64,000 nt of DNA from Halomonas sp. BDJS001 (GTDB lineage: Bacteria > Pseudomonadota > Gammaproteobacteria > Pseudomonadales > Halomonadaceae): the NCBI RefSeq assembly GCF_026104355.1, contig NZ_CP110535.1:1116001-1180000 (forward strand). Reading direction: 5' to 3'. Under the pieces are notes generated by a model, which was not told the origin of the DNA, searched no databases, and was given only the letters and a program-made list of their open reading frames with translations. Numbering within the stretch: position 1 is the first letter of the stretch; every line of letters starts with the position of its first letter. This document shows positions 43,971 through 49,435 of this stretch, one piece after another. Made by a program: the position numbers and the translations under genes.

Positions 43971-44345
43971 TTAGAAGCATGGAGCCGGACAGATGCTCAA
44001 CACACCCATAACCTCTTGGTGGGAAAGCACGACAGGCAAGCGCTGAGGGCGCTTAGCCCGGCTAAAATTACCAATCTCACCCAGCGGTTGATCTAGAACG
44101 TGGCGATAAAGAAATACGATGGCGTTGAGTGCCTGGTTTTGTGTTGCCGCAGCAACACGCCTCTCTATCGCAAGATATTCTAAAAATTGCCGCACTTCAT
44201 TGCCCGCCATGGTGGCAGGATGCCGCATTCTGTGGAAACGAATGAAAAAGCGAATCCAGTAGCAATAGGTTTTCTCAGTGCGAAGGCTATAGCGCTTGAC
44301 TGTGAGGGCAGCTTTCACCCTCTCCATCAGTTTCATAGATTGCAC
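43971..44345 (-). pseudogene. intI: Integron integrase IntI, C-terminally truncated
   Basis: The 124-aa product is the N-terminal SAM-like domain of an integron tyrosine recombinase, with YSLRTEKTYCYWIRFFIRFH, the typical EVRQFLEYLAIERRVAAATQ, and ALNAIVFLYRHVLDQPLGEI. It ends shortly after VVLSHQEVMGVLS, where the catalytic domain should begin, and then reads SICPAPCF to a stop. The Arg-His-Tyr residues are therefore gone and the protein cannot recombine. Full-length IntI is about 320-340 aa. It reads away from the cassette array, as intI genes do. Confidence 0.85.
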
Positions 44346-44360
44346 CCACGTGGCTTTTAG

Positions 44361-44376
44361 CTGATTTTATATACAG
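44361..44376 (-). promoter_or_regulatory. LexA box upstream of intI
   Basis: CTG-N10-CAG with an AT-rich core (CTGTATATAAAATCAG on the minus strand) lies 16 bp before the intI start. SOS control of integron integrases by LexA is established. Confidence 0.7.
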
Positions 44377-44418
44377 TATTATTGAAAATAGCAAATCGCG
44401 CAAGCACGCGAATTTTGT

Positions 44419-44497
44419 CTATACCGCCAAATTTTGCTTTGCTCTCAGGGGAATCAATGGGGTAGAGTCAAATGGTAGGCTACAAAACCCCAATGAA
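44419..44497 (+). promoter_or_regulatory. Promoter-like segment B, candidate cassette promoter Pc
   Basis: TTGCTC (44439-44444) and TAGAGT (44463-44468), 18 bp apart, point toward the cassettes. The segment is related to segment A at 43535-43610. Its place between intI and attI is that of a Pc promoter. Confidence 0.45.
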
Positions 44498-44527
44498 TGC
44501 GCCGTCACGTTCATTGAGGTTTTGTAG
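44480..44527. repeat. 18-bp inverted repeat beside attI
   Basis: CTACAAAACCCCAATGAA and TTCATTGAGGTTTTGTAG are complementary at 17 of 18 positions around a 12-nt loop. It lies 18 bp before the attI crossover point. Confidence 0.75.
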
Positions 44528-44544
44528 CTGGGTGTAGAATCACT

Positions 44545-44551
44545 GTTAAGC
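44545..44551 (+). other. Integron attI-type crossover site GTTAAGC
   Basis: The heptamer fits the GTTRRRY crossover consensus and marks the junction between the intI leader and the first cassette. Confidence 0.6.
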
Positions 44552-44560
44552 AGAAAATTT

Positions 44561-44650
44561 GGTGCTGTCGTCTAGCGGTCCAAGACGCCCGCCGATTATG
44601 TCGGATTGTGAAAGCGGGAAACTGAGGTTCGAATCTTCACGGCACCACCA
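44561..44650 (+). tRNA. tRNA-like gene with a 21-nt anticodon loop
   Basis: The segment folds as a tRNA with 7-bp acceptor stem GGTGCTG/CGGCACC, D-arm GTCT-AGCGGTCCA-AGAC (GG present), anticodon stem CCCGC/GCGGG, 4-nt variable loop and T-arm TGAGG-TTCGAAT-CTTCA. A is the discriminator base, followed by an encoded CCA. The anticodon loop (44593-44613) has 21 nt instead of 7, and a small hairpin (CCGA-TTATG-TCGG) is possible inside it. No anticodon can be assigned. The D-arm resembles tRNA-Glu. It begins 10 nt after the attI site, in the first cassette. Confidence 0.7.
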
Positions 44651-44665
44651 TTACATGAGTAAGTT

Positions 44666-45469
44666 ATGGAAAGTGAAGGTCTCAAGCAATTCTTAGAGGT
44701 TGTTGGCGATGCTGTGCATTCGGTTAACACAATCTGTGTTGGCTTGGCTGCTGTGCGAGAAGGGACTGTCAAGAAACCTGATGAACTAACAATTGGCTGG
44801 AAAAGTTCTAATCCAGAGACATCTGCCTCAAAGGCCAGGATATTTGCTCTCCGAGCATCACTGGTTTTCGTTGAAGAAGCGCTTCTAAAGTACCTTGATT
44901 TCCTCAAAGATTGTTCAACTGAAAACGAGAGGCTATATAAGGCGCTATCTAGCGAGGGAGCAGCGGACCGGGTTGTTGAAGTGTCCAAGTATCTTTCAGA
45001 TGCTGAGCCTTATTGGTGGCCGATGGTTGTTCTGCTAGTGCGATGGCGAAATAGGGTCGTCCATAATGCGAAAATTGGATTGGCTCCGCTTCAGAGGAAA
45101 ATTCTCCTTGAACACGAGGAGATTATTAAGCAGAGGCACGCGGGCATTGATATACAGAAAACCTTAGAAAATTTCGACTCTAGCCAGATAACTCTGAAGG
45201 ACTTCACGACCCTCATTGCAATTACAGTCCGCTATGTGCGAGCGCTTGATGAACAACTTGAGCCTCAGCTACACACGATGCAGGGCTTCATTTCCCGGTT
45301 GGAGCAACGAGGGTTGATAGAGGTTTTTGATAACGTGATGAAAGCAAACGGAGAGTCTACGCGGAGACGTAAGCTGCGGTCCTTTTTGGAAACTGAATTT
45401 TCAAAAATACCGGATAATTTTTTCGAGGACATTTTTCATCATGGGCCAATCCGCCAGAATAATGCTTAA
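44666..45469 (+). CDS. Cassette protein with HEPN-like Rx4H motif
   Basis: I do not recognise the family of this 267-aa protein. Residues 126-134 read RWRNRVVHN, the Rx4H catalytic motif of HEPN ribonucleases (R128, N129, H133), within a helical region. Helices 55-80 and 100-120 would form the rest of a HEPN bundle. The C-terminal part is helical and ends in RQNNA. HEPN proteins often cut RNA in toxin and defence systems. It lies 16 bp after the tRNA-like gene and its stop is inside the next attC site, so both belong to one cassette. Confidence 0.75.
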   Translation: MESEGLKQFLEVVGDAVHSVNTICVGLAAVREGTVKKPDELTIGWKSSNPETSASKARIFALRASLVFVEEALLKYLDFLKDCSTENERLYKALSSEGAADRVVEVSKYLSDAEPYWWPMVVLLVRWRNRVVHNAKIGLAPLQRKILLEHEEIIKQRHAGIDIQKTLENFDSSQITLKDFTTLIAITVRYVRALDEQLEPQLHTMQGFISRLEQRGLIEVFDNVMKANGESTRRRKLRSFLETEFSKIPDNFFEDIFHHGPIRQNNA

Positions 45470-45541
45470 CAATCGGCTGCATGGCGACCGATTTTCCGCC
45501 GCTGCGCGGCTCCAAACCGGCGCATGAGCCGGGCGTTAGAT
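45464..45541 (+). other. attC site 1
   Basis: It starts with GCTTAAC and ends with GTTAGAT, spanning 78 bp of imperfect palindrome (CGGCT...CCGGCGCATGAGCC). It closes the HEPN cassette. Confidence 0.8.
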
Positions 45542-45564: not shown

Positions 45565-46074
45565 ATGCTCCCAGTTCAGACCATTGAAGAGCTAATTAGC
45601 GAGTCCTACGTCAGTGCGATTGTCGCTCGGTCTGGCTTTGTGCCGAATTCGATTTCAAAGGACTTTGGTATTGATCTTGAAGTTCGCAATATAACTTCCT
45701 ATGGAAACAAGCGTATTGATATGGGCGCATTTCTTTCGCTGCAGCTTAAAGCAAGCGTAAATTGGTCTCTGGAAGATGACTATGTTGTCTACGATATGGA
45801 AGCCGATGCATTCAATCGACTCGTTTTCAGGCGGGATCAGTCAGCTTTGCCATGTGCTCTGGTTTTGTGCTGTCTACCAGATGATAAATCTTTGTGGATG
45901 GCCGCGTGTGAAGACGAGTTGACCATAAAAAAATGCTGTTACTATTACTTCGTCGAAGGGCCTGAATCCCCCAACTCAAGCTCGAAGCGTATTAGAATAC
46001 CTAGAGATCAATTGCTTACGCCAGAATCATTGCTGGGCCTTAAAGAAAAGCTACTCATGGGAGCTGTCTCATGA
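45565..46074 (+). CDS. DUF4365-type nuclease-like protein (cassette)
   Basis: The 169-aa protein resembles the DUF4365 family, whose fold is PD-(D/E)xK-like. The expected motif is visible: D37 in DFGIDLEVR, then Q60 and K62 in LSLQLKASVNW. Such domains act as nucleases in defence genes. It overlaps the next gene by 4 bp (ATGA), showing translational coupling. Base composition is lower in GC than the flanking chromosome. It is the first of three genes in one cassette with a SIR2-like gene. Confidence 0.75.
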   Translation: MLPVQTIEELISESYVSAIVARSGFVPNSISKDFGIDLEVRNITSYGNKRIDMGAFLSLQLKASVNWSLEDDYVVYDMEADAFNRLVFRRDQSALPCALVLCCLPDDKSLWMAACEDELTIKKCCYYYFVEGPESPNSSSKRIRIPRDQLLTPESLLGLKEKLLMGAVS

Positions 46075-47210
46075 TTCGCTCGGGAAATAATATTTTGGAG
46101 AATATAGATCGAGTCAGGTTATTTGATCTAAAAAACTACCTTTATAGAAAGGGTTGGCAGCAAATTGCAACCAACGGCGAAAAATGGCAGGTCTTCAAGC
46201 TCGATGTGGATTTGGATCAATCGCTGGAGCTTATCCTGCCAGGCAGCGAATCATTCATCGATTTCAGAGAGCGTATTCAACAATCGATAGAAGCTCTTTC
46301 TCAGATTGAGGACAAGCCAGTATCTGAAATACTTTCAGGATTGATGGTTGAAAATGCTGACTCAGTGAAGCTGCGACTTCAAGTTCCTGACTCTGTCAGC
46401 TCGTTGCCTATTGATGACGCTTCTAAGCATATTAAGGCAATTAGAAATCTTTTTTTATATTCTGGGTGCTCTGAAATAAAAAGTTTTCCTCACTTTGAAC
46501 AGCCGTTACCAGCCGCTCAAGATTATCTTGGTGACTTTGAATTTTGCCATACTTTCCGAGGAAGCTTTGGATTTGAAGTGTCTAGTGCAATTATTAAAGA
46601 AAAAGAGGATCGAGACCTATTTGAGCTGCCGGTAAATAGACGTATTGTTGAAAGAATAGCTAGAGGCCTCGTGGCTCTCGATAGTGCGGTTCGTAATGAT
46701 GATCCCGATATCCTGATTTCGTCCTACGAAAGAGCGCTAAATGCTCGCATGTGCGATGCATTAGCTCAAATTGGTCTTGGTGGCGAGTTAAATTTTGGCG
46801 TAGACATCGATTGGGCCACCATATTAGAACCGTCTGAGGATGTCGTTTCGTTCCGCAGTGTAACTGTAGGAGAAGCTCAAATTAGCATGCTCAGCTATGC
46901 ATCCGAAAAATTGAAGATTGTCGAGCCAACAGCGCAGCAAATATCTGGGCGAGTAGTTAATTTACATTGTGTTGCGAACCCCTCTGAGGGGAGTGCGAGA
47001 CGGACAGTAGCTATTAAGGTTGATCATTCAGATCATGGCCTGATTGAGGTTCGTTTGGCACTTGGTCCTGACTCCTATTTAAGGGCTTTAAAAGCACATT
47101 CCGAGGGAAGGGAGTTGGTAGCGTCCGGTCAGTTACAAAGGAAAGGCAACACCTGGAGCTTGGACGCTATAACTTCGGTTCAGGAAGGCCAACAATCTAC
47201 AAAGCGTTAG
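46071..47210 (+). CDS. Unknown protein of the three-gene cassette
   Basis: I do not recognise this 379-aa protein. It is predicted to be cytosolic and has a mixed alpha/beta look. Residues about 290-370 (SGRVVNLHC to WSLDAITSV) read as a beta-rich, possibly OB-fold-like domain. No catalytic motif is clear. It overlaps the DUF4365 gene by 4 bp and lies 13 bp before the SIR2-like gene, so a joint function is likely. The final codons overlap GTTAGGC, which resembles an attC end but is probably chance. Confidence 0.7.
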   Translation: MIRSGNNILENIDRVRLFDLKNYLYRKGWQQIATNGEKWQVFKLDVDLDQSLELILPGSESFIDFRERIQQSIEALSQIEDKPVSEILSGLMVENADSVKLRLQVPDSVSSLPIDDASKHIKAIRNLFLYSGCSEIKSFPHFEQPLPAAQDYLGDFEFCHTFRGSFGFEVSSAIIKEKEDRDLFELPVNRRIVERIARGLVALDSAVRNDDPDILISSYERALNARMCDALAQIGLGGELNFGVDIDWATILEPSEDVVSFRSVTVGEAQISMLSYASEKLKIVEPTAQQISGRVVNLHCVANPSEGSARRTVAIKVDHSDHGLIEVRLALGPDSYLRALKAHSEGRELVASGQLQRKGNTWSLDAITSVQEGQQSTKR

Positions 47211-47223
47211 GCCTGAACTGATC

Positions 47224-48474
47224 ATGGGTGGAGTTGGTAAGAAATTAAAGGGAAAAAGGCTCAAGCAAGCTTTGATGGATCTTTCTAAAAATAAAGAGGT
47301 TGTAGGAATGAACAAAGAGCATCCTGGGTTTCGAATTTTTGTGCTTGGGGCTGGTTTCTCTGTTCCTGCCGGCCTGCCCACTGCGGCAGAATTGTACCCT
47401 GAAGTTGTTAGGCGAGTGGAGCGGCTGCATGGGAAAGATAATCGCTTTCATTGGGCGCTTCAGGACTATATAAATTACCGAAAAAGAAGCGATGGTGTTG
47501 AGTTGAGTGTCGAAAACATAGACTTGGAAGAGTTTATGTCCTATCTCGATATCGAGCATTTTCTGGGATTAGAGGGTGGCGATACCTTAAGTGAGCATGG
47601 TAATGCAGCTCAGTTATTCGTGAAAAGATTTATTGGCCAAATAATTCATGAGCGAACGCCAAGCAAAGACTCTTTGCCACAAGAATATTATGAGTTTGCT
47701 GAGAGGTTGTCACTAAATGATATTGTAATAACTCTTAATTATGATGTGGTGCTTGAACGGGCTCTTGATCATGTTGGAAAGCCTTATCGGCTCTTTCCTC
47801 ATCGATACAGCAAGATCGGTGACGGATTTAATACGGTAGACGACTCCAGAGACGAAGTTACGATATTAAAGCTGCATGGCTCTTTAGATTGGTTTAGCAA
47901 TAAGTCCTACCTTCACGGCTTGGATGCTTTTAAAAAACAAGGTGTGGATGGGGCACCTAATGATCCTATTTTCAATAACAATGATAAGTACGGCCACTGC
48001 CCGTTAGTTGATGGTCCTAGAAATGAGGATGATCCGCTATTAAATATATATAGGTTAAAGAACATAGACCGTTTCTATGGAAATTATGATCCACCAGCTG
48101 TACCCATGATTCTTTCCCCTTCGCATATGAAAATTGTCTATGCCAATCCATTTCTGGATTTTTGGTGGGGTTGGGGGCGTGCCGGTGGTATGAACTTGGG
48201 TGTGTCAATTATCGGGTTTTCCCTCCCCTTACATGATGACTACCTTCGTATATGTCTCTATAGAATGGTATCTAATTTCCAAGGCGTATACTGGGACCAA
48301 CCTCTTCTAGATTGGTATAAAAATCACGTAAAGCTTGTTGACTATAGAACCGACGAAAAAAGCAAAGATGAGTTGCTAGAAAGATATCGGTTTATTGATT
48401 ATGAGAAAGCAGATGTCTATACAGATGGCTTTTCTAAGGATGCAGTCGATTTTATTTTTAGTCAATCGAGATGA
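47224..48474 (+). CDS. SIR2-like domain protein (candidate NADase effector)
   Basis: The 416-aa protein belongs to the SIR2-like group often found in antiphage systems. Motifs are LGAGFSVPAGLPTAAEL (NAD-binding GAGFS, residues 42-46), TLNYDVVLERAL (N172-D174) and KLHGSLDW (H218). In other SIR2 systems the enzyme depletes NAD in infected cells; this role is inferred. The start is ATG 47224. ATG 47308, with AGAGG upstream, would remove 28 residues and begin just before the SIR2 domain. An attC site follows its stop codon. Confidence 0.85.
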   Translation: MGGVGKKLKGKRLKQALMDLSKNKEVVGMNKEHPGFRIFVLGAGFSVPAGLPTAAELYPEVVRRVERLHGKDNRFHWALQDYINYRKRSDGVELSVENIDLEEFMSYLDIEHFLGLEGGDTLSEHGNAAQLFVKRFIGQIIHERTPSKDSLPQEYYEFAERLSLNDIVITLNYDVVLERALDHVGKPYRLFPHRYSKIGDGFNTVDDSRDEVTILKLHGSLDWFSNKSYLHGLDAFKKQGVDGAPNDPIFNNNDKYGHCPLVDGPRNEDDPLLNIYRLKNIDRFYGNYDPPAVPMILSPSHMKIVYANPFLDFWWGWGRAGGMNLGVSIIGFSLPLHDDYLRICLYRMVSNFQGVYWDQPLLDWYKNHVKLVDYRTDEKSKDELLERYRFIDYEKADVYTDGFSKDAVDFIFSQSR

Positions 48475-48546
48475 GTCTAACAAGTTGCTACACGCGGATA
48501 AATTACTCGCTGCACTCCTAATTTACCGGTGAGCAAAGCGTTAGTT
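48475..48546 (+). other. attC site 2
   Basis: The 72-bp site runs from GTCTAAC to GTTAGTT. It ends the three-gene cassette. Confidence 0.8.
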
Positions 48547-48577
48547 GGTATTATCCATTGTCGGAGTTCATAGAAGA

Positions 48578-49435
48578 GTGAAAGATAAAAGAATATTTAA
48601 AATTGAGCTTCCGTCGGTTGATGTTTTAGGCGTAAGAAGCATTGAAAAGCGTACAAATGGAGATGTTGTCGAAACTCGAGCGGGTAGTTTTACTCATAAA
48701 TATATCGCACCGTTTTTCTTGATCGTAGAAGATAATCTAGCAAAACAAGTTATAGATGTTATCGCTTCTGAGTTCACTAGCTTGCCGAGAAAATATATCC
48801 TTTCCGGAGTCTGGGTCAATCAAGCTGCCTGCTTGCTTGGATTTTTGATGTACGCCAAAGAGCTAGAGAGCACTAACGTCCCACAATTTTCCATTCTGTC
48901 TATTGATGATGGAGATATACAAAAAGAGGAGAAAGAGAAAAGACTCAACAAATTATTAAAAGGTAACTATTTTGGAGAGGAACTCGGAGTCGCGAAAAAG
49001 CTCTTGTCTGAGCTGATGTTATCTTTTAACTTAGAGTATTTGGATCGTAATGTAAAAAAAGGGCTGCCAGAATATAACCATAAGAAATGGTTTGAAGAGA
49101 TAGATAAAGAAGTTATTCTCTCTATTGATAAGCCGTCTAATCTACATGAAGAACGGAAAGTTGAAAGCTTGCTAGAGCTTATTAAGTTCTCTAAATCAAT
49201 AGAGTTGAATGATTATCACAGCTATTACGAAGAGCTAAGAAAATTTCGTCCAAGCAATACTTTGGATTTATTCCATATGACCGAATTCTTCGTTCTAAAT
49301 GCCATAAAGAAATACAATAAAGTCAAATGGGATGCATATGTTGGGCGCATTAGGGATGCCCTAGTTGATGTAAAGGAAGAAAATAGGAAGAGGTTCGTTG
49401 AGGCCGATATGTACTTCAACAAAAGAAACAACTAA
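48578..49435 (+). CDS. Unknown cassette protein
   Basis: I do not recognise this 285-aa protein. It is soluble, rich in Lys and Glu, and low in GC. GTG 48578 (preceded by GGAG at about 11 nt) is a likelier start than the TTG at 48545, which lies in the attC site. No membrane helix or catalytic motif is evident. A helical C-terminal half begins near residue 175. Its stop lies within the attC3 core. It could be defence-related by context. Confidence 0.6.
   Translation: MKDKRIFKIELPSVDVLGVRSIEKRTNGDVVETRAGSFTHKYIAPFFLIVEDNLAKQVIDVIASEFTSLPRKYILSGVWVNQAACLLGFLMYAKELESTNVPQFSILSIDDGDIQKEEKEKRLNKLLKGNYFGEELGVAKKLLSELMLSFNLEYLDRNVKKGLPEYNHKKWFEEIDKEVILSIDKPSNLHEERKVESLLELIKFSKSIELNDYHSYYEELRKFRPSNTLDLFHMTEFFVLNAIKKYNKVKWDAYVGRIRDALVDVKEENRKRFVEADMYFNKRNN

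Follow-up and report, generated by a model that had tools for sequence, protein, structure and literature searches.

In the 64,000-nucleotide stretch of Halomonas sp. BDJS001 DNA analysed here (the window), an RNA that folds as a tRNA cloverleaf with an oversized anticodon loop lies directly upstream of a gene for a predicted HEPN ribonuclease, and the two are coupled in one mobile two-part module. Wherever this module was found, RNA and gene co-occur strictly, in the same order and orientation and at close spacing, with a conserved RNA fold, a conserved active-site motif and carriage by mobile elements near defence genes. On balance, we consider it probable that these loci represent a new class of defence module, in which a tRNA with its loop enlarged to 20–30 nt has been refashioned as the dedicated RNA partner of a HEPN protein – be it as antitoxin, decoy or sensor – and has travelled through alpha- and gammaproteobacteria on integron cassettes, prophages and plasmids. 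That the RNA and the HEPN gene form a mobile RNA–protein module working like an RNA-antitoxin/RNase-toxin pair is a reading in which our confidence is about even; the role of the module is probably phage defence.

The tRNA-like RNA (44561–44650, + strand), recognised by its fold, ARAGORN, Rfam and its homologues, is 90 nt long and forms a full cloverleaf: an acceptor stem GGTGCTG/CGGCACC, a D stem GTCT/AGAC with GG in its loop, an anticodon stem made of CCCGC (44588–44592, +) and GCGGG (44614–44618, +), a T arm TGAGG-TTCGAAT-CTTCA, and a discriminator A followed by an encoded CCA (44647–44650, +), which is not kept in all relatives. Between the two strands of the anticodon stem sits a loop of 21 nt, CGATTATGTCGGATTGTGAAA (44593–44613, +). 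A cloverleaf with such an outsized loop had been proposed in a preliminary description made from the sequence, and it proves to be real: all arms are present, ARAGORN calls the element, and the Rfam tRNA covariance model RF00005 gives it 45.0 bits (gathering threshold 29; E=9e-8), a score that is not random, with 20 anticodon-loop residues left unmodelled in the alignment. The ARAGORN call, the only one in the window, carries the label tRNA-Asn(att), which is a mislabel. Among the 59 tRNA matches of the host genome, the element ranks bottom by score; tRNA-Glu is its nearest host tRNA among those compared, mainly through the D arm, and the element is neither a recent copy of it nor a stray tRNA.

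The long loop recurs throughout the family. Its length in 11 tRNA-like RNAs is 20, 21 (four copies), 24, 26 (two), 29 (two) or 30 nt: the loop of the Zhongshania copy has 21 nt, that of Vreelandella (V.) lionensis is identical, and distant copies span 20–30 nt, which rules out the sequencing error that might have explained the length. The extra hairpin noted earlier inside the window's loop is present as CCGA/TCGG but is not kept in Zhongshania, and some copies among the alphaproteobacterial relatives have a different hairpin of 5–6 bp there (GAAGC-CTTG-GCTTT, GAGCCC-TTTG-GGGTTC). Loops are alike within clades (CGATTAY..TTNTNAAA; CTTTAYGAAGCC..GGCTTTCTCAGA), and their conserved portion, CCGCC...AAAGCGG plus a YUNARA-like 3′ end, is modest and does not define a specific binding site. 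A pairing between the loop and the Shine–Dalgarno sequence of the HEPN gene, suggested by CTTTCT against AGGAAG in L197 (L numbers denote loci), fails in the gammaproteobacterial copies. Matches of viral contigs to AAGACGCCCGCCGATTA (L036–L038) are put down to chance, in DNA with a coding look and no tRNA call; a looser loop pattern picked out 120 viral-contig stretches, with no R1 match (see below) among the 80 scanned.

The partner gene (44666–45469, +) starts 15 nt past the CCA and encodes a predicted HEPN ribonuclease of 267 aa. No family was assigned to this protein by NCBIfam, PADLOC or Pfam above its cut-off; the Pfam model HEPN_RiboL-PSP – whose family has been called a distant relative of AbiF and AbiD (PMC3710099) – reaches 11.5 bits with it, below the cut-off, and 20.3 bits (cut-off 28.4; E 5.5e-4) with one of the L194 copies. 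The HEPN catalytic motif is R-N-x3-H, with a polar residue typically following the arginine (PMC3710099), and the protein has R128-N129-x3-H133, in keeping with the general R-x4-6-H pattern; this motif (codons at 45047–45064, +) does not vary in the alignment, where W127, R128, N129, H133, L147, T176 and K178 are invariant. An AlphaFold2 model built from four sequences, whose input excluded the plasmid and whole-genome homologues, is all-helical (pLDDT 83.6, pTM 0.78) and places the motif at the end of the helix 117–133; an earlier two-sequence model was poor (pLDDT 53.8) and was not used. The solved structures that Foldseek ranks highest by probability are HEPN toxins (7ae6, prob 0.89; 5yep; 7bxo), at a non-significant E=0.62, and a sequence search of the PDB returned no convincing match. 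Taken together, these results make a HEPN identity likely. Two copies of the gene are broken beneath a well-formed RNA: that of V. lionensis (L003:4001–4590), by stop codons and the contig end, and that of Pseudoalteromonas (L193:3667–4465), by a frameshift. Such broken genes beside intact-looking RNAs are compatible with decay and do not prove toxicity.

The case for coupling comes from homologous loci, which were gathered by protein sequence alone, without reference to the RNA. In 84,980 species genomes, the window protein has homologues in Zhongshania aquimaris (65% identity) and V. lionensis (91%, the broken copy), and both loci (L002 and L003) have the same tRNA-like RNA directly upstream, with 21-nt loops. 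The Zhongshania protein as query led to relatives of about 23% identity on a Sinorhizobium americanum plasmid (L192) and a Pseudoalteromonas piscicida replicon (L193); protein profiles then added members in G1183, G1271 and one IMG/VR contig, and subsequently in G1428, G1440 and a second IMG/VR contig. The 10 loci thus found beyond the window (L002, L003, L192, L193, L194, L195, L197, L200, L201 and L203) have protein identities down to about 20%; they lie in Vreelandella, Zhongshania and Pseudoalteromonas, in alphaproteobacteria and prophages, and on a plasmid of Sinorhizobium, and one contig has two copies in tandem. All 11 loci, the window's included, have a tRNA-like RNA with a loop of 20–30 nt directly upstream of the gene and on its strand – a count that starts from HEPN genes, the score of R1 being unable to separate HEPN-less tRNA-like RNAs from ordinary tRNAs. 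The gap between RNA and start codon is 5–23 nt where an ATG could be assigned, the start in L201 being ambiguous.

Most of these RNAs were predicted blind. The covariance model R1, built from the three close copies only, found matches upstream of the genes in L192, L193, L194 and L197, those directly upstream of the Sinorhizobium and Pseudoalteromonas genes having E=1.9e-9 and 1.5e-11, respectively, at sites where ARAGORN was silent; R2, built from seven copies, added blind matches upstream of L200, L201, L195 and L203, so that eight of the 11 RNAs had been predicted before any model included them. R2 matches 11 times in the 55.7 kb that make up the 11 loci, always immediately before the HEPN gene; the weakest, in L195 (19.9 bits) and L203 (17.4 bits), are supported also by position and stem pairing. 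Distances among the RNAs are correlated with those among the proteins (r=0.886, Mantel p=5e-5, n=9 pairs), as expected if both travel together. Applied to whole genomes, R1 picks up mainly ordinary tRNAs, which score about 58 bits; in 275 genomes of the family, nothing but the two Vreelandella copies stood out. When 274 gammaproteobacterial genomes were later searched with a profile, no further members emerged, which marks the module as rare (1943 genomes were searched overall). With the window protein as query, tblastn in phages and a first plasmid search gave no match, and a match in Bdellovibrio (L004) was discarded as spurious, lying antisense to another gene.

Across this divergence the cloverleaf has been kept. 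With the 11 RNAs aligned, standard pairs fill 97.8% of the pair cells, and 15 of the 21 cloverleaf pairs have changed on both sides, a degree of covariation reached by none of 500 shuffles; a seven-sequence alignment not fitted to any model gives the same picture. Two pairs of the anticodon stem and one of the T stem are invariant. By this pattern of substitution, selection maintains the RNA as a long-looped cloverleaf. The scaffolds themselves differ, being Glu-like in gammaproteobacteria and of another type in alphaproteobacteria, and RF00005 scores of relatives are 39.8–56.1 in L194, L192 and L197 and 26.3 in L193. Several hallmarks of tRNA are meanwhile dispensed with. The branch of L195 and L203 has lost the D-loop GG and the encoded CCA, and L203 also the T-loop length; CCA is absent from copies outside this branch, too, and is encoded in only about half of them; U33 is not conserved. 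A canonical anticodon loop, 7 nt long with U33 and a legible anticodon, is found in none of the 11. Since D-loop GG, encoded CCA and U33 vary among relatives, the RNA is not a decoding tRNA – as one of the earlier suggestions had it – and, with T-loop length lost as well, translation is not the function that has been kept.

In the window, the module travels as an integron cassette. A GTTAAGC recombination core (44545–44551, +) marks the 5′ boundary and an attC site (GCTTAAC...GTTAGAT; 45464–45541), which folds into a long imperfect hairpin, lies at the other end; the cassette contains the tRNA-like RNA and a single gene, 44666–45469. It is the first cassette, as had been recognised earlier, behind a decayed integrase gene (43971–44345, − strand) of which only the N-terminal 124 aa remain, so that this integron has lost its own integrase. 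The companion proposal, that expression from Pc would be strongest at this position, found no support: no sigma-70-like site occurs in 44340–44720, and the integrase gene is truncated. Nor was a promoter or terminator found in the window between the tRNA-like RNA and the HEPN gene. The next cassette region (45565–47210, +) contains a candidate defence pair, PDC-M02A/B (PADLOC E 6e-55 and 3e-123), consisting of a DUF4365 protein and its partner; 47224–48474 (+) encodes a SIR2-like protein, likely another defence cassette, and 48545–49435 (+), still within the cassette region, a 296-aa protein that has no Pfam, PADLOC or NCBIfam match.

Other copies of the module reside in prophages and on a plasmid, and the integron is therefore one carrier among several. 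On the Sinorhizobium plasmid (L192:5399–8549, +), genes for an ApeA-type HEPN defence protein, a hypothetical protein and a RES NAD+ phosphorylase come after the module. In two IMG/VR contigs (L197:2322–4554 and L203:1978–3870), it lies beside phrog_6367 among phage structural genes, a site that is likely a hot spot for morons. The Zhongshania copy has as neighbour an ATP-grasp protein (MvdD/RimK-like; L002:4825–6062, +), whose gene, together with a preceding small ORF, resembles a RiPP-type pair. In L194:1474–3026 (−; G1183), one tRNA-like RNA precedes two tandem HEPN paralogues, with a TnsA-like protein nearby, a layout which suggests that a single RNA may be the partner of two proteins or of a heterodimer. 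No partner protein gene recurs in the flanks examined, which leaves the RNA as the only consistent partner of the HEPN gene there.

In the antitoxin model, the tRNA-like RNA would be transcribed ahead of the HEPN gene in the same transcript, from which the tRNA-processing enzymes of the cell may free it. A HEPN dimer would then bind this tRNA mimic through its anticodon arm, and the oversized loop, too long for a normal substrate, would block the active site and so restrain the enzyme. Phage infection might shift the balance between RNA and protein; with the RNA lost, the freed nuclease would cut RNA, probably in tRNA anticodon loops, and growth would arrest. Neutralisation of the HEPN protein by the tRNA-like RNA is what we infer, the closest demonstrated precedent being AbiF, whose HEPN toxin is neutralised by an upstream ncRNA through direct binding (PMC12373285). 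Counting against the antitoxin model are the modest conservation of the loop, the below-threshold Pfam and Foldseek matches of the protein, the spacing of 5–23 nt, which fits a cis-regulator equally well, and the single-copy RNA. Classical type III antitoxins, by comparison, consist of tandem repeats, and a terminator separates them from the toxin gene.

One of its two chief rivals is a cis-acting autoregulator, to our mind rather unlikely, in which the tRNA-like element would be part of the HEPN mRNA leader and the HEPN protein would bind the mimic and repress or cleave its own mRNA; ThrRS, for one, regulates thrS through a tRNA-like operator. The constant position directly 5′ of the start codon, the continuity of RNA and gene without a separate promoter or terminator in the window, and the dispensability of tRNA hallmarks in L195/L203 all agree with this. 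Compensatory change, however, keeps the full cloverleaf and acceptor stem, beyond the need of an anticodon-arm operator, and a CCA encoded in about half of the copies suggests a released, tRNA-processed RNA. The other chief rival is a bait or sensor, quite unlikely in our estimate: the RNA would imitate a tRNA that is the target of nucleases and repair enzymes from phages or competitors, and its cleavage or titration would activate the HEPN protein. No trigger is known for such a sensor, which formally overlaps with the antitoxin model; the defence contexts, the enlarged and accessible anticodon loop and the difference in loop sequence between clades on a fixed stem are what one would expect of it.

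Very unlikely, in our view, is a guide RNA whose 20–30-nt loop would pair with a target RNA and direct the HEPN protein, a tRNA-scaffold analogue of Cas13-like systems. The loop length lies within the range of guides and HEPN nucleases underlie Cas13, of which AbiF with its ncRNA is a proposed ancestor (PMC12737573), but the loop is conserved within clades rather than reprogrammable, and there is no array. We see slimmer prospects still for a captured tRNA fragment, acting only as a processing signal or attachment remnant with no role in HEPN control. tRNA genes are common attachment sites of genomic islands, and the processing of a tRNA can also mature an mRNA that follows it; against this general plausibility stand the linkage in 11 of 11 loci across different carriers and distinct scaffolds, as well as the compensatory evolution and the long loop in every copy. 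Least credible is a translating or intron-bearing tRNA, from which the extra 14 nt would be removed to leave a decoding RNA: despite the good acceptor and T arms, the encoded CCA and the tRNA calls by ARAGORN and Rfam, excising 14 nt never yields a 7-nt loop that has U33, the loop varies from 20 to 30 nt, relatives have lost D-loop GG, CCA and T-loop length, and the RNA is linked to a HEPN gene rather than to a need of translation. The intron suggested earlier can thus be set aside; the decoy proposed alongside it is still a candidate.

Among known systems, the RNA of the module resembles canonical tRNA (RF00005) in its cloverleaf, T-loop and tRNA-Glu-like D arm, but differs in its 21-nt loop without an identifiable anticodon, and in that CCA and D-loop GG are unconserved in relatives. 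Annotation programs call such RNAs ordinary tRNAs (here tRNA-Asn) or overlook them. PrrC and RloC defend against phages as HEPN RNases that cleave the anticodon loops of tRNAs (PMC3710099); the module, unlike these, has neither an ABC-ATPase domain nor a restriction–modification partner, its linked element being an RNA. HepT/MntA (HEPN–MNT) type VII toxin–antitoxin systems provide the closest solved folds by Foldseek probability, whereas the HEPN gene of the module has an RNA and no nucleotidyltransferase antitoxin beside it. Type III toxin–antitoxin systems (ToxIN, CptIN, TenpIN, AvcID) likewise place an untranslated RNA directly upstream of a predicted toxin, and the module shares this order in position and spacing, with the antitoxin role of its RNA putative; unlike them, it has a single tRNA-like unit (one R2 match per locus) and a HEPN protein instead of a ToxN fold or deaminase. 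Lacking repeats, it does not count as a classical type III system.

The nearest parallel is AbiF, in which a HEPN gene likewise follows a short structured ncRNA on the same strand, with carriage by prophages and other mobile elements; a structured RNA directly upstream of the HEPN gene is found in all 11 loci of the module. The AbiF RNA (RF03085, RCd22/AbiFr) differs from the tRNA cloverleaf with its 20–30-nt loop. No Abi_2 domain was matched in the members scanned (at E<=10 in two scans and E<=1 in a third) and tRNA is the one family that Rfam reports at the site, with no abiF RNA motif, so the module is not an AbiF. A pairing of a tRNA-like RNA with a HEPN gene was not found described in the literature covered, outside which lie most subscription papers and preprints. 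We place the module with a known kind, HEPN nucleases accompanied upstream by an RNA of their own, and see a substantial chance that it merits a separate class. If it is indeed an RNA-controlled RNase, a tRNA-derived RNA would join the short list of RNA antitoxins, and the evolution of a tRNA into a regulator of an RNA-cutting enzyme could be tested directly on the module. It would also represent a second lineage of HEPN proteins with an ncRNA, to be compared with AbiF, the proposed ancestor of Cas13.
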